17,935 nt of DNA. Origin: Myxococcota bacterium. GTDB taxonomy: Bacteria > Myxococcota_C > UBA6777. The stretch is taken from positions 1 through 17,935 of the forward strand of contig JAKLKB010000177.1 in NCBI GenBank assembly GCA_023150835.1, given 5' to 3'. The notes below the pieces were generated by a model. The model saw only the letters and a list, made by a program, of their open reading frames with translations, was not told where the DNA came from and did no database searches. Each line of letters starts with the position of its first letter. Position 1 is the stretch's first letter. The position numbers and the translations under genes were made by a program. Positions 2,415 through 17,574 of this stretch are shown here, piece by piece.

Positions 2415-2501
2415 CGTGGAGGAATCCGTCAGAAAGAACTGTTTGCAACAGGAATGGCCGCCGAACCCGGATGGGGGTGTGCCGCGAAGGAGAGAGGGCC
2501 G

Positions 2502-3779
2502 ATGTATCAATCGTTAGCGAAGACAGATCCCGAAGTGTTTTCGAGTTTGCGTCATGAGTTGCACCGCCAAGAAGAAGGTTTGGAGATGATCGCGTCGGAG
2601 AACTTTGTGTCGCGAGCGGTGATGGAAGCGGTGGGATCGCCGTTGACGAACAAGTACGCGGAAGGGTATCCAAAGGCGCGGTATTATGGTGGATGCGAGT
2701 ATTACGACGAGATCGAGACGTTGGCGATCCAGCGAGCCTGCAAGTTGTTTGGGAGCGATCATGCGAATGTGCAACCGCATTCGGGCGCGCAAGCCAACAT
2801 GGCGGCGTATCAGGCATTGTTGAAGCCGGGGGATACGATCTTGACGTTGGAGTTGGCGCATGGGGGCCACTTGACGCATGGGAGTCCCGTGAATGGTTCG
2901 GGCAAGTTGTACAATGTAGTGCATTATCGGGTGCGACAGGACGATCAGCGGCTGGACTACGATCACATTGCAGAGCAAGCAGCGGCCCACAAGCCGAAGC
3001 TGATCGTGGCAGGCGCGAGCGCATATCCGCGAACGATCGACTTTGCGCGATTTCGACAGATCGCAGACAGCGTGGGGGCGTTGTTGATGGCGGATGTGGC
3101 GCATGTAGCAGGTTTGGTGGTGACGCAGCTTCATCCTGATCCGATGCCGTATTGTCATGTGGTGACGACGACAACGCACAAGACGCTGCGCGGTCCTCGG
3201 GGCGGGTTGATCTTGACGTCGGAGGATTATCGCAAAGCGATCAATTCGGCGGTGTTTCCCGGGATGCAGGGCGGGCCATTGATGCACGTGATCGCGGGAA
3301 AAGCGGTGGCGTTTGGCGAGGCGTTGTTGCCGTCGTTTGCGGCGTATCAGCGGCAAGTATTGGCGAATGCGCAGACGTTGGCCAAGGTGCTGTCCGACGG
3401 TGGAGTGCGTTTGGTGACGGGAGGAACGGACAATCACTTGATCTTGATGGACGTGGGGAGTCTGGGCCTGACGGGTCAACAATGCGAGCAAGCTTTGGAG
3501 CAATCGGGCTTTACGGTGAACAAGAATATGATCCCCTATGATGCGCGCCCGCCGAAGGTGACGAGCGGGATCCGCGTGGGAACCCCCGCGCTGACATCGC
3601 GTGGGATGGGCGTGGCAGAGATGAAGCAGATCGGCGCGTGGATGTTGGAGATCTACAAAGATATCGAGAATGAAGGATTGCGCGGGCGGATTCGTGCAGA
3701 AGTGGCGGCGATGAGCAAGCGTTTTCCGTTGTATCCGGCGTTGGTTTCGGCGGCAGATAGTTTGGGGGGGCAAGGCTGA
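2502..3779 (+). CDS. glyA: Serine hydroxymethyltransferase
   Basis: This PLP enzyme converts serine and tetrahydrofolate to glycine and 5,10-methylene-tetrahydrofolate, the main source of one-carbon units. The 425-residue length is normal for the family. Visible features are [11 protein letters not shown] near residue 25, [18 protein letters not shown] near 50-68, HSGAQAN near 93, the DVAHVAGL segment near 198, and the PLP-binding motif [14 protein letters not shown] with Lys227. The start is the ATG at 2502, with AAGGAG nine bases upstream; an in-frame upstream ATG at 2454 would add a non-family leader. nrdR begins seven bases after the stop, so the two are surely co-transcribed. The enzyme appears intact. 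Confidence 0.97.
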
Positions 3780-3785
3780 GGCCCG

Positions 3786-4268
3786 ATGCGATGTCCTAAT
3801 TGTCAAGCGGAAGAGACGCGAGTGATCGATTCGCGAAGTAGCAAGGATGGCTACGTGGTGCGTCGTCGTCGGGTGTGCGAAGAATGCAAAGGCCGATTTA
3901 CGACGTACGAAAAGATCGAGCAGATGTTGCCGATGGTGACGAAGAAAGATCAACGGCGAGAGTTGTTTGCGCGGGAGAAGATCACGCGAGGGATCATGCA
4001 GGCGTGTCAAAAGCGGCCCGTGAGCATCGAGCAAGTCGAGCAGATCGCCGATGAGATCGAGCGTTTGGTGTCCGAACGCAGCGAGCGAGAGGTGGAGAGC
4101 CAACAGATCGGCGCGTGGGTGATGGAAAAATTGCGCGATGTGGATCAGGTGGCGTATGTACGTTTTGCGAGTGTGTATCGGGAGTTTCGGGACGCCGAAG
4201 AGTTTATGGCGGAGTTGCGGGGGCTTTTGCCAGAAGGGGAAGGGGGAAGACCCCAAACGCAAGGGTGA
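3786..4268 (+). CDS. nrdR: Transcriptional repressor NrdR
   Basis: NrdR is a nucleotide-sensing repressor of ribonucleotide reductase genes. It has an N-terminal zinc ribbon (Cys3, Cys6, Cys31, Cys34) with the family opening MRCPNCQ and the following RRRRVCEECKGRFTTYE. An ATP-cone domain follows (about residues 47-140), with REKITRGIMQACQKRPVS and later YVRFASVYREF. The 160 residues match the family. The start lies seven bases after glyA's stop, with GAGG upstream. No ribonucleotide reductase gene is present here; the position between glyA and ribD is a conserved arrangement I know from myxobacteria and relatives. The C-terminal tail (RPQTQG) is echoed in the downstream spacer. Confidence 0.96.
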   Translation: MRCPNCQAEETRVIDSRSSKDGYVVRRRRVCEECKGRFTTYEKIEQMLPMVTKKDQRRELFAREKITRGIMQACQKRPVSIEQVEQIADEIERLVSERSEREVESQQIGAWVMEKLRDVDQVAYVRFASVYREFRDAEEFMAELRGLLPEGEGGRPQTQG

Positions 4269-4339
4269 TGAGAGGCGTTGTGTGGAGTGTCCCTTGGATG
4301 GGCAGTCGAAACGTCCGCAAACGCAAGGATAATGGAGAG
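4254..4339. repeat. Short duplication spanning the nrdR stop and the ribD start
   Basis: CAAACGCAAGGGTGATG (from 4254) recurs as CAAACGCAAGGATAATGG (from 4318), 64 bp later. Extended leftward, both copies read Arg-Pro-Gln-Thr-Gln-Gly-stop, differing only at synonymous positions. The first copy is the end of nrdR. The second includes a candidate ribD ATG. Confidence 0.6.
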
Positions 4340-4346
4340 ACCTTCT

Positions 4347-5474
4347 GTGGATCGAGATGTGTATTATATGTCGCTGGCGCTTGAAGAAGCGGCGCGAGCG
4401 AGAGGTCGAACCCGTCCGAATCCGATGGTGGGTGCGGTGGTCGTCAAAGAGGGCGAGATCTTGGCGCGGGGGTACCACCATCGCGCAGGTTTGCCGCACG
4501 CGGAGGTGGAAGCGTTGTCACAGATCGGTGAGGCAGCGCGTGGTACGACGATGTATGTGAACTTGGAGCCATGCAGCCATTATGGTCGGACGCCACCTTG
4601 TGCGGATCGGTTGATCGAGGCGGGTGTGGCGCGGGTGGTGGTGGGGGTGACGGATCCGAATCCTCGCGTGGATGGCCGAGGTATCGAGCGTTTGCGTGCG
4701 GCAGGGATCCAAGTTGACGTTGGCGTGTTGGAGTCGGCGTGTGCGGATCTGAATGCGCCATTTTTTACATACATCCGAGCGGGCCGTCCGTATGTGCAGC
4801 TCAAGATCGCGATGAGTTTGGATGCGCGGATCGCGACGAGGACGGGGGATTCGCGTTGGTTGAGCGGAGAAGAGGCTCGGCGTTGGGCGCACCAGTTGCG
4901 CGATCATGCGGATGCGATCTTGGTGGGTGTGGGGACGGTGATCGCGGATGATCCTGCGTTGACGGTGCGTTGGGTGGAGGGGCGCGATCCGTTGCGAGTG
5001 GTGTTGGATTCGACGTTGCGAACGCCGCTGTCGGCGCAGATCGTGGTGGGAGAACAGGCTGCGGGGACGGTGGTGTTTTGCTGTCGCCCTGATGTGGAGA
5101 AGCAAGCGGTGTTGGAAGCGCGGGGCGTGCGCGTCGAGGTGGTCGAGGCGGATGCTGCGGGGCAAGTCTCGCTCGAAGCGGTGTTGCGTCGTCTGCATGG
5201 GATGGAATGTTTGCATCTTTTGGTGGAGGGCGGTGGCGGTGTGCATGGCGCATTTTTGCGGTCGCGTCAGGTGGATCGGTTGTCGCTGGTGTTGACGCCT
5301 TGGTTACTCGGCTGCGACGGGATCGATGCGTTTCGTTTTGCAGGAACGGATCTGTTGAAAGATGCTTTGAAGCTGCGGGGTTTGCGAACGCAACGTTTGG
5401 GGGAAGATATCTTGTTGGAAGCGGAGATGCCGAAGATGGAGCGCGAGAGCGTAGGATCAGGTGAAAGCCGCTGA
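4347..5474 (+). CDS. ribD: Bifunctional riboflavin deaminase/reductase
   Basis: RibD deaminates the pyrimidine product of GTP cyclohydrolase II and then reduces its ribosyl side chain. The N-terminal deaminase domain (about residues 1-145) has the zinc site HAEVEAL (His51, Glu53) and [12 protein letters not shown] (Cys76, Cys85). The C-terminal reductase domain (about 147-375) begins [16 protein letters not shown] and includes the [15 protein letters not shown] and [13 protein letters not shown] segments. I chose the GTG at 4347 because GGAG lies nine bases upstream and the product starts MDRDVYYM, as in the family. The ATG at 4332 is an alternative, but its AAGGA is only two bases away. Both catalytic domains look intact. 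Confidence 0.95.
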
Positions 5475-5524
5475 TGTGTTGGGATATTTGGAAGGTTTGC
5501 GCGTGGTGTTGAATGGAGGGTGCT

Positions 5525-6712
5525 GTGAATAGCAAAGAGCGTGTAGAGCGGGCATTGGAAGAGATCCGCAAGGGCAAGATGATCGTCTTGGTGGATGATG
5601 AAGATCGAGAGAACGAAGGCGATCTGTACATGGCGGCAGAGAAAGTGACACCCGAAGCGATCGCGTTTATGGCATCGCGAGGTCGGGGATTGATTTGCTT
5701 GACGTTGACGGATCAGCGGTGTGCTGAGCTTGCGTTGTCGATGATGGTGACGGAGCAGGACAATCACACGCCCTACGGGACGGCATTTACGGTCTCGATC
5801 GATGCACGTGAAGGGATATCAACGGGGATCAGCGCGCATGATCGGGCGTTGACGATCAAGTTGGCGATCGATCCAAAGACGCGACCAGAGCAGTTGGTGC
5901 GACCGGGCCACATTTTTCCGTTGCGTGCGCGGGAGGGTGGGGTGTTGGTGCGTGCGGGGCAGACGGAAGGGTCGGTGGATTTGTCGAGGATGGCGGGTTT
6001 GCATCCGTCAGGTGTGATCTGCGAGATCATGAAAGAAGATGGGACGATGGCGCGGATGCCGGATCTGGAGGTATTTGCGTGTGAACATGATCTGATGATC
6101 TTGACCATTGCGGATCTGATCGAGTATCGGATGCGGCATGAATCCTTGGTGCAATGCCAACAGGAGTTTGCGTTGACGACGGAGACAGGCGCACGATTTC
6201 ATGCAAGCGTTTGGCGCGATGTGATGGCTGAGCGCACGCATTTAGCGATCCGTCTTGGCGAATGGAGCGAAGAAGAAGAGGTGTTGGTGCGGGTGCATCG
6301 CAGCAGTTTGTTGAGCGATGTGTTTGGATTTCACCGTCCCCACGCTTCGCCATCGCTGCAAGGGGTATTTGAAACGCTCGAAGAAGCAGGAAAAGGCGTG
6401 GTGCTTTATTTGGTGTATCCCGAACCCGGGACGGATCTGATCTATCCGTTGGCTTCGTATGAAGAACGCGAAAGATTGGCCTTGCCCCAAGCGATGCGAG
6501 AGTTGCGGGAATATGGGATCGGCGCACAGATCTTGTCGCGTCTCGGCTTGCGCAATATCCGATTGATGACCAACAACCCGAAGCGGCTTGCAGGGATCGA
6601 TGGTTATGGCCTGACGATCGTTGAACAAGTTTCGATCCCACAAGATACACAGCGACGTGCGGGTCTGACCGTGACCTCGGTGGCTGTCCACGAAGACGGA
6701 GACAAGGTGTGA
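5525..6712 (+). CDS. ribB: DHBP synthase with degenerate GTP cyclohydrolase II domain (RibBA-like, RibBX type)
   Basis: Residues 1-203 are 3,4-dihydroxy-2-butanone 4-phosphate synthase, which makes the four-carbon riboflavin precursor from ribulose 5-phosphate. The [10 protein letters not shown] loop (24-33), [10 protein letters not shown] (126-135) and DDGTMAR-type segment near 171-177 are present. The GHTEA motif reads GQTEG (145-149), so a metal-binding His appears replaced by Gln146. Residues about 205-395 align with GTP cyclohydrolase II, but all three zinc cysteines are gone: Ser261, Pro272 and Ala274 stand where the family has Cys. The RQEGRGIGL loop reads VYPEPGTDL. The YGIGAQIL and TNNPKR segments remain. 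The second domain is therefore probably inactive, structural or regulatory. Start: GTG at 5525 with GGAGG five bases upstream, preferred over the ATG at 5513, which lies just upstream of that ribosome binding site. It overlaps ribH by four bases. Confidence 0.92.
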
Positions 6713-7197
6713 ATATGCCAGAGATCATAGAAGCCAATCTGGTGGTCGATCCAAATGCGCGTTTTGCGCTGGTGGTGTCGCGCTTCAATGAAACGATCTG
6801 CGAGCGTTTGTTGAGCGGTGCGATGGATGCGCTGGTGCGTCATGGCGGAAAAGTCGAGCAGATCGTGGTGGTGCGCGTGCCGGGAGCTTTTGAGATCCCG
6901 TTGGTGGTGCGTCGTTTGGCCCGCAGCAAGCGCTTTGATGCCGTGATCGCGCTTGGGGCAGTAATTCGTGGCGGAACGCCGCACTTTGAATATGTTTGTT
7001 CGGCGGTGACTTCGGGGCTGAATCAGGCCCAGATGGAAACCGATATCCCTGTTGCGTTTGGGATCTTGACAGCAGATACCACAGAGCAAGCGACGGAGCG
7101 GTCGGGGATCAAGATGGGAAACAAAGGCATCGAGGCTGCCCTTGCTGCCGTGGAGATGGTGAACTTATTGAAACAGGTCGATGCGCATGTCTATTAG
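6709..7197 (+). CDS. ribH: 6,7-dimethyl-8-ribityllumazine synthase
   Basis: RibH condenses the RibD-derived pyrimidine with dihydroxybutanone phosphate to give lumazine, the substrate of riboflavin synthase. It usually assembles as pentamers or 60-mer capsids. The 162 residues show [12 protein letters not shown] (substrate loop), [33 protein letters not shown] with catalytic His92, and the [17 protein letters not shown]-terminal segment. The GTG at 6709 overlaps the ribB stop as GTGA and has GGAG seven bases upstream. The ATG at 6715 is nearly as good, with AAGG seven bases upstream. It overlaps nusB at its 3' end. The enzyme looks complete, although no riboflavin synthase follows. Confidence 0.96.
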
Positions 7198-7768
7198 ACG
7201 AAAAGGTCGTGAGTTGGCGTTGATGGTGTTGTATGCGTTGGATGGCGTGCCGACGTTTGAACGGCGAGAGGCTCTGGCGCGTTTTTGGGCGTTGTTCGAT
7301 GAAGATCGCGTCTGGGAAGTGTTTTTAGAAGCGGAACCTGCGATCGAGCATCCGCTAGAACCGCCGCCGTTGTGGTCGCTGTTTGACAGCCTTTCGCTCG
7401 AAGCCAGCCCGCGCCAAACCCCCCCACCCTTCGAGCAAGCCCGCCTTACCACCGAGTTTGCACAGGTGCGGATCGATGGGGTGTTGGATCATCTCTCGAT
7501 CCTTGACGAAGAGATCGGGCGCGCAAGTCGAGGTTGGCGGATTCAACGCATGGCGCAGATCGACCGAAATATCTTGCGGATCGGAGCCTACGAGATCTTG
7601 CATTGTTCGGATATCCCCGGGCCTGTGATCATCAACGAAGCCCTCGAATTGAGCAAACGCTTCTCCTCTCGCGAGTCTCGCTCCTTTATCAACGGTGTTC
7701 TTGATCGGATCTTGCGCACCCGAAACGAAGGCCCCGCCGTCACCACCCGCCCATCCCGCCGCAATTAG
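7187..7768 (+). CDS. nusB: Transcription antitermination factor NusB (enlarged)
   Basis: NusB pairs with NusE (ribosomal protein S10) on boxA RNA and supports rRNA antitermination. The opening [20 protein letters not shown] and the C-terminal core ([50 protein letters not shown]) are typical. At 193 residues it is longer than the usual 130-160. The extra length is a Pro-rich segment about residues 50-85 and a basic tail. The start overlaps the end of ribH; the ATG at 7187 is better spaced from CAGG than the one at 7181. Codon usage changes at about 7390: G-ending codons before, C-ending after, within the insertion. The last gene of the operon. Confidence 0.93.
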
Positions 7769-7803: not shown

Positions 7804-7974
7804 ATTGTTGGGCAGCCACATGGGGCTGCCCCTACGTTTTACGAACGAAGATTAGTGCGTAGACGCCCGATTGTTGGGCAGCCACAGGGGGCTGCCCCTA
7901 CGTTTTACGAACGAAGATTAGTGCGTAGACGCCCGATTGTTGGGCAGCCACAGGGGGCTGTCCCTACGTTTTAC
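7804..7974. repeat. 66-bp tandem repeat array with hairpins, possible bidirectional terminator
   Basis: Units start at 7805, 7871 and 7937; the third is cut off after about 38 bp. Each carries a perfect or near-perfect inverted repeat GGGCAGCC-loop-GGCTGCCC (7810-7831, 7876-7897, 7942-7963), followed by CTACGTTTT. The array lies between the convergent nusB and CBS-domain genes, where the hairpins could stop transcription from either side. The hairpins belong to the same family as those at 77-282. Confidence 0.9.
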
Positions 7975-7999
7975 GATCACACGATGGGCGGATTTCGTA

Positions 8000-8660: not shown

Positions 8661-8804
8661 GCGGTCTGACAAGTCCACAGCAAGCATCACACCGCTCTTG
8701 GCAAAGAGCCGATGGGTGGGTTAAAAGATTCGTGTTGTGTGCGTTGCGTAAGGCGGCGTGCGAAAGCAGCGAAGCGATAGACTTGTAGTGAGTTGGAGGC
8801 GGAG

Positions 8805-9359
8805 ATGGCGAGACGAGCGGAGTTTGGGAAGCTCAACGTGGGAGATCGATTGTTTGAAGTGCAGTATTACGAGGTGGTGGAGATCGATCGAGAAAAGCGC
8901 GAAGCAGTGTTGCGCAACGAGCGGGGCTATGAGTTGGAAGTGACGCACGACGTGATCGAAGAAGGGATGTACACGGCCAACCAATACAACAGCGAAGAAC
9001 GCCTCCCACGCACGCAGATCGTGGAGATCTTGGAGAACGCCAAAGACACGATCTTCACCGTGAACTTTCACAAACAGCCAAAAGAAAAAGAAGTGTTGGA
9101 AGAAGCGTTGGCGGTGATTCGAGCCGAAGGTACGGGAGATCCGAAGGTGTTTGAGAAACATCTTGGAGAGGCGATTAAGCGCGGCATACACGGCGAAGAA
9201 CGAACCTTGGTGGGATATCTGATCCAGACCGAGCCAAAGATGGGACGCAGCCAAGTGATCGATCTTGAAGCGCCCACCGCCGCCCAACGCATCCGCTTGA
9301 TCGATCATCGCACGATCAATTGGATCGTGATCAAAAATGTGAAATACATCGTCAAGTGA
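8805..9359 (+). CDS. Conserved protein of unknown function, 184 aa
   Basis: I have an impression of having seen similar sequences, with a start like MARRAEFGKLNVGDR and a conserved end around LVGYLIQTEPKMGRS and IDHRTINWIVIKNVKY, but I cannot name a family or function. The protein is soluble, with no signal peptide or membrane span. Residues 1-55 look like a small beta-rich domain (NVGDRLFEVQYYEVVEID, VLRNERGYELEV). Residues 65-135 are charged and helical. Residues 135-184 form a basic segment. The ATG at 8805 has GGAGG five bases upstream. It is monocistronic, facing a convergent zinc-ribbon gene 50 bases away. A nucleic-acid or ribosome-related role is possible from the basic C-terminus, but this is a guess. 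Confidence 0.88.
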   Translation: MARRAEFGKLNVGDRLFEVQYYEVVEIDREKREAVLRNERGYELEVTHDVIEEGMYTANQYNSEERLPRTQIVEILENAKDTIFTVNFHKQPKEKEVLEEALAVIRAEGTGDPKVFEKHLGEAIKRGIHGEERTLVGYLIQTEPKMGRSQVIDLEAPTAAQRIRLIDHRTINWIVIKNVKYIVK

Positions 9360-14815: not shown

Positions 14816-15334
14816 TTAGCTTTTGGAGACGGGGAGTTTGAGCATCTTGCGAGACTGAGCCGCAAAGCGTTGGGGGCCGCGTTGTGCATGGAGGCGGAAG
14901 ATCCAAAGTCCGGGCCGATGGGCCAATATCGGAGAAGTATAACGTCCTTTGCCGGTGGGTTTGAGCGTAAGGCGGAGAGGTTGGCTGGCTTGGGCATTGT
15001 GAAAGGCGCGAACGGTGACATCGGCATCTTGGAGTGGTGAGCCATCTTGGGCCTGCAAAGTAACGGAGAGGATCTGGAGGGTTGGGCGCGTTGGATGGGG
15101 CTTGAGCGTTAGATCAAAACGCCAGCCCAGTCGTGTGCTTTGGGTGTTTTCATCGACTTGTTTGTCCCATTCGACGGCTTTTTTGTAATAGTTGTCTTCG
15201 ACGGCGAAAGAAGGATCGTTGATGGCGATCACGACCATCAAGAGGCTTCCGCCAGAACTGATCGCAAGAAGGCCGACGAGCAGCCAAGGCCAAAACCAGC
15301 CTTCGCTGCGTTGGGGAGAAGGTGTGGGGGTCAT
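14816..15334 (-). CDS. ccoH: cbb3 oxidase assembly protein CcoH/FixH
   Basis: FixH-family protein of 172 residues with one N-terminal membrane helix (residues about 13-37, WFWPWLLVGLLAISSGGSLL). The family hallmark AINDPSFAVEDNYYKKAVEWD follows, then a periplasmic beta-rich domain with the LTLKPTGKGRY and PGLWIFRLHAQR segments. It stabilises the oxidase during assembly. The ATG at 15334 shares one base with the ccoG stop (TGATG) and has AGGAG nine bases upstream. The next gene starts 22 bases after its stop. Intact. Confidence 0.95.
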   Translation of the reverse strand: MTPTPSPQRSEGWFWPWLLVGLLAISSGGSLLMVVIAINDPSFAVEDNYYKKAVEWDKQVDENTQSTRLGWRFDLTLKPHPTRPTLQILSVTLQAQDGSPLQDADVTVRAFHNAQASQPLRLTLKPTGKGRYTSPILAHRPGLWIFRLHAQRGPQRFAAQSRKMLKLPVSKS

Positions 15335-17328
15335 CAAAAGCTGCTCCTAGAGGGTGGGGCTTGACGGAGTGTGGGCGTGGTCGGGAGTGAGGCAGGCGGA
15401 GCGATCGGAAGAGAGGCTGCGGAAGGAAGGGTTGTCGAGGTGGGAGGTGCGGATGGGCGGGATGTAGGGGCCGTCGTGTTGTTGGGAGATGCGGAAGGAC
15501 GGGATGTATGGGCCGTCGTGTTGTTGGGAGATGCGGAAGGACGGGATATATGGGCCGTCGTGTTGTTGGGAGATGCGGAAAGACGGGATGTATGGGCCGT
15601 CGTGTTGTTGGGAGATGCGGAAAGACGGGATGTATGGGCCGTCGTGTTGTTGAGAGGTGCGGATGGAGGCGGTACTGCGGGTGTGGTGGATGTAGAAGAT
15701 GCGGAAGGGTGGGGTGTTGTGGAAGCATACGGACGAGGCGGCCCGATTAGCGGGAAGTTGCGTTCCCAAGTGAAGCCTTTGCCATCGGAGACGCGGATCT
15801 TGACGGTGTAGGGGTTTTGATCGTGGGCGGAGCGCGGGATCATGGTAAAGACGTTGGCTTTGTCGAGTCCGTAGGCATCGATCTCGATGGGATTGATGGG
15901 GATGATGGAACGCAGGGGGCGATCTTTGGGGCCGATGATCTCGATGCGGTAGGATTGTTTGGAGGCGGTACGGTTGGCGACGCGGATGTGGAGGTGGTTG
16001 CTGAGGCTACCGTCGCCAAGGAGCTTGTAGGGTTCGCTGCCAGCGCGCAATATGGAGGCTTCGGCACGGGTGCGGCTGGTACGGGTCATGGCGAAAGCAA
16101 GGACCGAAAAGAGGAAAAGGATCAGAACGGAATAGACCAGAGTGCGCGGTCTTTTGAGGCGGAGGCGCGGCCCGCCTTCGATTTCGGCTTGCGAAGCATA
16201 ACGGATCAGGCCCTTGGGTTTGTTGACTTTGGTCATGATGGCGTCGCAAGCGTCGATACATTGGGCGCAATTGATGCACTCCATTTGTAATCCCTCGCGG
16301 ATATCGATCCCCATCGGGCAAGCGACCACGCAAGCGCCACAGTCGATGCAGTCTCCCCACTCGTTGGCCGAAGGGGCCGAAGTGGCGGAGGATACGGAGC
16401 TTAGGAGAGAAGCGGTCGGAGCGGCGGATGGCGTCGAAGAAGTTGGTGGAACGGAAGGGGTAAGCTGTGTCGAAGAAGACGGTGGGATGGAAGGGATAGG
16501 CTGTGCCGAAGAAGACGGTGGGATGGAAGGGATCGGCTGTGCCGAAGAAGACGGTGGGGCGGAGGTTTTGCGCAGGGCGGCGCGTCCGCGTGGCTCACCA
16601 CGGTTGGGGTCGTAGCCGACGATCAGGGTGTTGCGGTCAAGGAGGGCGGACTGGATGCGTCCATAAGGGCAGGCGACAAGGCAGGTTTGTTCGCGGAAGT
16701 AGGCGAAGTCAACGAAGATAAGGAGGGTGGTGATCAACATGACAAGGAAAGGAGCGGGGTGTTTGAAAGGGGATTCACGGACCCAGATCCAGAGGACTTC
16801 GGGGCTGACAAAGTAGGCGAGGAAGCTGTTGGCGAGGATGGCGGCGATCAGCAAAAAGATCGCGTATTTGAGTAAGCGGATGGGGGAGAAGAAGCTTTCG
16901 CGATCGCGTTTGAGGCGTTGAGCGGGGGGGCCTTCGAGCCAGTGTTCGATCGGTCGGAAGAGGAATTCCATGTAGACGGTTTGAGGACAAGCCCATCCGC
17001 ACCAAACGCGGCCAAAGAGGGCGGTAAATAAAAAGATGGCAAGGCCGACAGCAAGCAAAGACAGCCAAAGGATCAAGGTATCGGTGGGGAAGAAGGTAAA
17101 GCCGAAGATCGTAAAACGGCGAGCGGTGAGATCGAGCAAGAAGAGATGTTTGCCGTTCCAGCGCAGGTAGGGCAAGACGACAAAGATCAGCATCAAGAAG
17201 TAGGCAAGCCACTTTCGCTGTGCATGGAGCTTGCCGGTGGAAAGTTTGGGGTGGATCCAACGACGGGTGCCGTCTTTGTTCATGGTGGGTAGGACACGTT
17301 CGTTGGAAGTGGGGGTTGGGTTGTTCAT
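15334..17328 (-). CDS. ccoG: cbb3 oxidase accessory protein CcoG/FixG with repeat-encoded expansions
   Basis: CcoG is a polytopic ferredoxin-like protein implicated in copper reduction for cbb3 assembly. Membrane helices lie near residues 41-55, 83-105, 152-174, 192-210 and 396-413. The GRVWCGWACPQTVY motif (107-119) and CLVACPYG (216-223) precede two 4Fe-4S motifs, CIDCGACVVACP (327-338) and CINCAQCIDAC (351-361). The C-terminal Ig-like periplasmic domain runs about 440-530. Two extra segments are present: a Pro/Ser linker (about 256-322) just before the Fe-S motifs, and a Ser/Thr/Pro/Asn tail (about 531-664). Without them the length is normal, about 465. The ATG at 17328 has AAGG upstream; a second Met lies 15 residues later. 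Confidence 0.95.
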   Translation of the reverse strand: MNNPTPTSNERVLPTMNKDGTRRWIHPKLSTGKLHAQRKWLAYFLMLIFVVLPYLRWNGKHLFLLDLTARRFTIFGFTFFPTDTLILWLSLLAVGLAIFLFTALFGRVWCGWACPQTVYMEFLFRPIEHWLEGPPAQRLKRDRESFFSPIRLLKYAIFLLIAAILANSFLAYFVSPEVLWIWVRESPFKHPAPFLVMLITTLLIFVDFAYFREQTCLVACPYGRIQSALLDRNTLIVGYDPNRGEPRGRAALRKTSAPPSSSAQPIPSIPPSSSAQPIPSIPPSSSTQLTPSVPPTSSTPSAAPTASLLSSVSSATSAPSANEWGDCIDCGACVVACPMGIDIREGLQMECINCAQCIDACDAIMTKVNKPKGLIRYASQAEIEGGPRLRLKRPRTLVYSVLILFLFSVLAFAMTRTSRTRAEASILRAGSEPYKLLGDGSLSNHLHIRVANRTASKQSYRIEIIGPKDRPLRSIIPINPIEIDAYGLDKANVFTMIPRSAHDQNPYTVKIRVSDGKGFTWERNFPLIGPPRPYASTTPHPSASSTSTTPAVPPPSAPLNNTTAHTSRLSASPNNTTAHTSRLSASPNNTTAHISRPSASPNNTTAHTSRPSASPNNTTAPTSRPSAPPTSTTLPSAASLPIAPPASLPTTPTLRQAPPSRSSF
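15434..15685. repeat. 42-bp tandem repeats encoding the CcoG C-terminal tail
   Basis: Units of 42 bp begin at 15434, 15476, 15518, 15560, 15602 and 15644; the first and last are diverged. On the coding strand each unit gives 14 residues of the form SASPNNTTAHTSRP. The period is a multiple of three, so copy-number change would preserve the frame. Confidence 0.9.
16436..16570. repeat. 36-bp tandem repeats in the CcoG internal linker
   Basis: Units start at 16436, 16472, 16508 and 16544, the last one partial. They encode a 12-residue Pro/Ser motif (PPSSSAQPIPSI). They lie between the conserved NRGEPRGRA segment and the first 4Fe-4S motif of CcoG. The period is again in frame. Confidence 0.88.
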
Positions 17329-17448
17329 CTTAGACCTTTCGCCACCGTGGGGAGGTGGCTTGCCCATCCGTGAGCATGGGAAAGAGAACGGGCGATCTTG
17401 CGGGATACACCCTTTCTTGAGGGACTGTGATTTGGAGCGACGCAGTTT

Positions 17449-17574
17449 CCAAAAAAGCCATGTTCGCGCCAGATCAAGCGAGAGAGTCGTTTGTGTGAAA
17501 AGCGTTTGTTCGTCTCGCCGATGCGGGGTCAAGGGGCGGGAGGTCCCTTGTGGGGTGTGGGGCGCTGCCCCATA
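17449..17574. repeat. Dispersed repeat, copy 2
   Basis: This matches 1643-1775 in the same orientation, with blocks AAAAAAGCC.TGTTCGCGC, AGAGTCGTTTGTGTG and GGGGTCAAGGGG, then CCCTTGTGGGGTGTGGGG. It sits upstream of ccoG in the intergenic region 17329-17666. The following GCGCTA-GGT-TAGCGC palindrome (17576-17590) is not in copy 1. No clear promoter for ccoG was identified in this stretch. Confidence 0.7.

Follow-up and report, generated by a model that had tools for sequence, protein, structure and literature searches.

The window, by which we mean the whole stretch of 17,935 nucleotides analysed here, carries on its plus strand the gene run rpiB-glyA-nrdR-ribD-ribBX-ribH-nusB, and its features are collected in Table 1. 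The gene between ribD and ribH encodes a two-domain protein of riboflavin synthesis with two possible start codons. GTG 5525 is the likelier start, since a GGAGG sequence lies five bases 5' of it, at 5515-5519. The residue numbers Ser261, Pro272 and Ala274 used below count from this GTG; counted from ATG 5513, the same residues are 265, 276 and 278. Control of the operon by an FMN riboswitch was also considered and rejected, as Rfam gave no match within the window at the gathering score.

Table 1. Features of the riboflavin locus, in positions of the window.
Feature	Position	Strand	Basis or remark
glyA and nrdR, upstream neighbours	2454..4268	+	order conserved
ribD (deaminase/reductase), operon partner	4278..5474	+	PF00383 and PF01872
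ribBX gene	GTG 5525 or ATG 5513 to stop 6712	+	ORF 5513-6712
DHBP synthase (RibB) half of RibBX	5525..6130	+	PF00926, TIGR00506, near-invariant columns
RibX half: GCHII fold lacking the zinc ligands	6131..6637	+	PF00925, functional columns, AlphaFold model
Former zinc site	6305..6346	+	Cys54 to Ser (6305-6307), Cys65 to Pro (6338-6340), Cys67 to Ala (6344-6346)
Former GTP loop	6413..6439	+	VYPEPGTDL in place of RQEGRGIGL of E. coli RibA
YGIGAQIL, containing GxGxQ	6512..6535	+	sequence and survey of RibBX
Replaced C-terminal tail	6638..6709	+	alignment; very low model confidence
ribH (lumazine synthase), operon partner	6709..7197	+	PF00885
nusB, operon neighbour	7181..7768	+	PF01029

Elsewhere in the window, a 188-residue open reading frame (8793-9356, plus strand) matches no Pfam or NCBIfam family. 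Intergenic tandem repeats are found at 53-314 (130-base unit), 1319-1536 (41 bases) and 7804-7976 (66 bases). On the minus strand, the gene at 15334-17532 encodes a CcoG/FixG-like protein whose Pro/Ser/Thr-rich repeats stem from tandem repetition in the DNA, with a unit of 36 bases before Fer4_18 (16435-16558) and one of 42 bases in the tail at the C-terminus (15441-15667).

The N-terminal half of the ribBX product is a complete predicted DHBP synthase with a conserved active site. PF00926 covers residues 12-205 with 283 bits, and TIGR00506 (ribB) scores 252.9 bits, above its cut-off; the RibB domain is the only one in the protein to pass an NCBIfam cut-off. When compared with the 39 columns that are near-invariant in active fusions, this half departs from them solely by a two-residue insertion at positions 82-83.

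The C-terminal half is matched by PF00925 over residues 217-373, with 130 bits versus about 216-217.5 bits for the genome's own stand-alone RibA. We aligned it with 88 fusions (the window protein among them), six stand-alone RibA and E. coli RibA, 95 proteins in total, and scored 18 columns that are zinc-binding, GTP-binding or catalytic in E. coli RibA, with roles as assigned from its structure (2bz0/2bz1). The window protein retains six of these columns (R49, V50, H51, Y105, R128 and T149 in E. coli numbering) and none of the three zinc cysteines, as compared to 16-18 columns in active relatives. D126 and K154 are exchanged for Glu and Arg, respectively, and C54, C65, C67, Q70, E92, G93, R94 and T114 are lost. 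The replacement of the cysteines by Ser261, Pro272 and Ala274 and the reading of the RQEGRGIGL loop as VYPEPGTDL, both proposed in an earlier, sequence-only reading of this DNA, agree with the alignment to E. coli RibA, and the residue numbers are right when counted from GTG 5525. That reading had placed the start of the feature at 6293, which is 12 bases ahead of the first of the replaced codons. It had also described the domain as otherwise full length. The core of the GCHII domain is indeed present, with YGIGAQIL, TNNPKR (from 6569) and IDGYGL (from 6596) kept as claimed, but the protein lacks about 6-8 residues ahead of the Asp126 column, and unrelated sequence has taken the place of the NxxYLxxKxxKxGHLL tail at the C-terminus.

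Across the 95 aligned proteins, 20 lack every zinc cysteine, 74 keep 16-18 of the 18 columns and a single one lies between, and given this split the loss of the zinc site cannot be regarded as a chance pattern. The protein in between (L060, G032:C28) is RibBX-like, keeping all three cysteines with 7 of 18 columns, and is possibly an intermediate or an enzyme with another activity. In line with the alignment, the window protein scores 66.7 bits against TIGR00505 (GTP cyclohydrolase II; cut-off 205.85) and falls under the cut-offs of all the bifunctional RibBA equivalogs (448.8 versus 513 for NF010626 and 415 versus 569 for NF006803). With neither zinc ligands nor GTP loop left, this half is almost certainly unable, as predicted from its sequence, to open the GTP ring. 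Bifunctional RibBA identity is ruled out by the same two losses in the active-site alignment, and annotation of the gene as 'bifunctional RibBA' would be wrong.

As the assembly is fragmented into 239 contigs, one could ask whether an assembly error or a frameshift has disfigured a normal ribBA. The same loss, however, is present in an independent MAG (G002) whose protein shares 61% identity with that of the window genome (G000) and occupies the same operon slot; moreover, the reading frame holds no stop or frameshift, and the motifs on either side of the lost sites are in frame. We therefore regard an artefact as a practically negligible possibility. The identification of the gene as ribBX is near certain.

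The AlphaFold model of the protein has a mean pLDDT of 83, and the strands and helices of the RibX half are mostly predicted with confidence; values drop below 50 at 273-278, once the zinc loop, and at 305-307, once the GTP loop. The top solved-structure matches of the model are 4i14 (M. tuberculosis RibBA) and 6mnz, an entry titled as RibBX of A. baumannii, the latter ranking first by a second aligner (Z 35.8, rmsd 3.1, 335 of 336 residues).

The genome (7.56 Mb, 93% complete) contains exactly two GCHII-family matches, namely the window gene and the separate RibA on contig C104, which keeps 17 of the 18 GCHII columns. The window gene is the sole DHBP synthase found in it, and ribE is located on contig C52. 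Since an intact ribA, one DHBP synthase, ribE, ribD and ribH are all encoded, riboflavin synthesis appears to be within reach of this genome, and the GTP step is predicted to fall to RibA. The sequence-only reading had suggested a search for a separate ribA with intact cysteines, since the lack of any other GTP cyclohydrolase gene in a riboflavin prototroph would have spoken against its proposal, and the RibA on C104 removes this objection; sequence, structure comparison with 6mnz and genome context all agree with the RibBX-type protein that it proposed.

The pairing of RibX-type proteins with a second GCHII-family protein extends beyond this genome. Sixty genomes from across the bacteria were surveyed, with G001 and G044 left out of the count as their loci are missing or split. 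A second PF00925 protein occurs in 8 of 8 RibX-type genomes (G000, G002, G003, G004, G012, G032, G045 and G057) but in just 3 of the remaining 44 (p about 2e-7), four of the eight belonging to one family and so not being independent. G032 enters this count through L060, with its three cysteines. Some of the surveyed genomes hold further variants. The second protein of G057, besides its RibBX, is a RibA-like one of 174 residues with three cysteines and no EGR motif (L136, G057:C4), and G012 has both a RibBX of 331 residues and a RibBA with an intact GCHII half (17 of 18 columns) and an unusual RibB half (L063, L053). Additionally, G002 and G004 carry PRK07198-type proteins resembling GTP cyclohydrolase II (L041 and L043, 740-752 bits). 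As a UTP cyclohydrolase structure, 7eev, appears lower down in the list of fold matches to the RibX half, these extra proteins may be URC1-like.

The comparison of G000 with G002 bears on whether the RibX half is maintained. The two proteins are 78% identical in the RibB half and 48% in the RibX half. Four-fold degenerate sites differ by 0.73 and 0.838, respectively, and are thus saturated, and second codon positions differ by 0.10 and 0.257. Considering a second-position difference of 0.257 while four-fold sites are saturated, the RibX half is under purifying selection, which is weaker than in active GCHII halves: active fusions with 75-80% identity in RibB show 61-79% identity in GCHII, versus 48% for RibX. 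This faster divergence indicates that part of the RibX half is weakly constrained. Together with the lost tail, the deletion, and the residues at the former cysteine positions, which vary from Ser, Pro and Ala in G000 to Asn, Gln and Gly in G002, it could be taken as the mark of a decaying, functionless remnant, tolerated with RibA elsewhere. We consider such decay unlikely. The frame has stayed open and the domain has been kept in both genomes despite the saturation of synonymous sites, the second-position difference is well under the value of about 0.75 expected without constraint, both proteins share the derived, non-canonical motifs VRVHRS and DVFGFHR where the zinc site used to be, and the domain is retained in other zinc-less lineages as well. 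A pseudogene is rejected on the grounds of G002 and the codon-position differences, and the view of the sequence-only reading, selection and not decay, is supported. Shared motifs beside variable cysteine positions are as expected if catalysis was lost and the domain retained.

The same new residues at the old zinc site, along with the persistence of R128, T149, Y105 and an acidic residue at 126, might instead point to a zinc-free catalytic activity of the RibX half itself. We hold this to be very improbable, in view of the disappearance of the E92/G93/R94 loop, Q70 and the zinc site, and of the presence of the new motif in two sequences only.

Within the GIGAQIL stretch of the window protein, three residues merit separate attention: Gly131, Gly133 and Gln135 in E. 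coli numbering, hereafter GxGxQ. The motif is kept in all 20 zinc-less RibBX, in 64 of 68 zinc-bearing fusions (each single residue in 64-65 of them) and in none of seven stand-alone RibA, a small comparison side in which five proteins come from the phylum of the window genome. At the sequence level, GxGxQ marks the fused enzymes and survives the loss of catalysis in separate lineages. We infer that it serves the fusion, presumably through a contact with RibB or through dimerisation; the helix could also be needed simply for folding.

The retention of the core fold and of the fusion-specific GxGxQ, with the ligand loops lost and modelled at low confidence, would suit a RibX half that is purely a scaffold or dimerisation unit for RibB stability, with neither ligand nor regulation. 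This is a serious alternative, towards which we nevertheless remain more doubtful than inclined: the four RibBX of the phylum all retain residues that belong to the GTP site of RibA, namely Arg128, Thr149 and, at 154, a basic residue, which leaves room for a ligand, and in Shewanella RibX reportedly acts as a regulator of RibB, through a mechanism described as unknown (Brutinel et al., 2013, as cited in PMC10012899). We give about even odds to the broader proposal that the dead half regulates or stabilises RibB, a role suggested by analogy with other species and by motif retention.

The analysis covered five genomes of the phylum. Trees built from the RibB half alone require 6-7 changes of the zinc-less label; well-supported branches force at least five changes in the careful tree and three in the quick one. 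Such counts carry no direction, and we take the changes to be losses of the zinc site, the regain of three cysteines and a GTP loop being implausible. The RibBX of G000 and G002 form one clade (support 100/99). In the RibB tree this pair groups apart from the three proteobacterial RibBX sampled (Acinetobacter, Burkholderia and Novosphingobium); the AU test does not reject their union in one clade (p = 0.35), and a common origin with them is possible. By contrast, G003 and G004, of the same family, carry a RibBX of a different kind from that of G000 and G002, and the AU test rejects a single clade of all four (p = 0.002), with the reservation that the branch of G003/G004 is fairly long, an effect which the test controls incompletely. 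RibBX lies between ribD and ribH in G000 and G002. In G003 and G004 the run rpiB-glyA-nrdR-ribD-ribH-nusB is intact with no ribBX between ribD and ribH, the gap measuring about 80 and 150 bases, respectively (L139 5943-6023; L140 6403-6556); their RibBX genes are found on other contigs, where the GC content matches and the flanks are not shared. The simplest reading is that G003 and G004 lost the operonic ribBX and use another RibBX instead. No RibBX was found in G001, of the same genus as the window genome, which is likely due to an assembly gap, given that ribD and ribH of the operon and any DHBP synthase are absent from it too.

Taken together, we propose with a probability of roughly 90% that the window gene is a ribBX whose RibB half is active and whose GCHII half is catalytically dead, the separate RibA doing the GTP step. 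According to this model, the ancestor would have been an operonic bifunctional RibBA, and the presence of a second ribA would have left the cyclohydrolase half free to lose catalysis. The N-terminal half, judging by its full conservation, would make 3,4-dihydroxy-2-butanone 4-phosphate from ribulose 5-phosphate, and the RibA encoded on C104 would act on GTP. The dead half would have been retained as a folded partner whose most likely task is to tune or stabilise RibB, probably by way of contacts involving the GxGxQ helix. A wider picture, in which RibBX arose several times from RibBA, the phylum swapped its operonic RibBX, RibX and RibB make their working contact through the GxGxQ helix and selection has kept the dead domain as a regulator and no relic, is put forward as a tentative suggestion. 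Its elements (multiple origins of RibBX, replacement within one phylum and GxGxQ retention) are worth following. For the question of why RibBX keeps its dead half, this lineage, with a less eroded RibX, a sole DHBP synthase and two RibBX types, offers a natural comparison, and GxGxQ a specific set of residues to probe.

As regards known systems, the proteobacterial RibBX (Shewanella, Aeromonas salmonicida and A. baumannii 6mnz) resemble the window protein in combining a complete RibB, a GCHII half without zinc ligands and most catalytic residues, and a separate ribA. The Aeromonas salmonicida protein complements an E. coli ribB mutant and not a ribA mutant, and its gene, like that of the window, belongs to a rib operon, where it stands between nrdR and nusB (PMC10012899); Aeromonas has a second ribB, whereas the window RibBX is the sole RibB of its genome. 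Compared to 6mnz, the window RibX is less eroded C-terminally and keeps TNNPKR. A RibBA from a deltaproteobacterial MAG (L077) shares the operon slot and 57% identity over 374 residues with the window protein, and yet it holds 18 of 18 GCHII columns. Arabidopsis RIBA2 likewise retains DHBP synthase but no longer GCHII activity, and zinc-binding residues are reported to be absent from the non-GCHII isoform (PMC3509567), but it is a plant isoform beside the bifunctional RIBA1, while the window gene is operonic and accompanied by a stand-alone RibA. Campylobacterota RibBA-like proteins (L110-L117) also join RibB to a GCHII remnant without zinc ligands, and differ in being shorter (339-358 residues) and in forming their own clade in the RibB tree. 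RibBX is thus an already published kind of protein, to which the window protein adds a case from a little-known uncultivated group.
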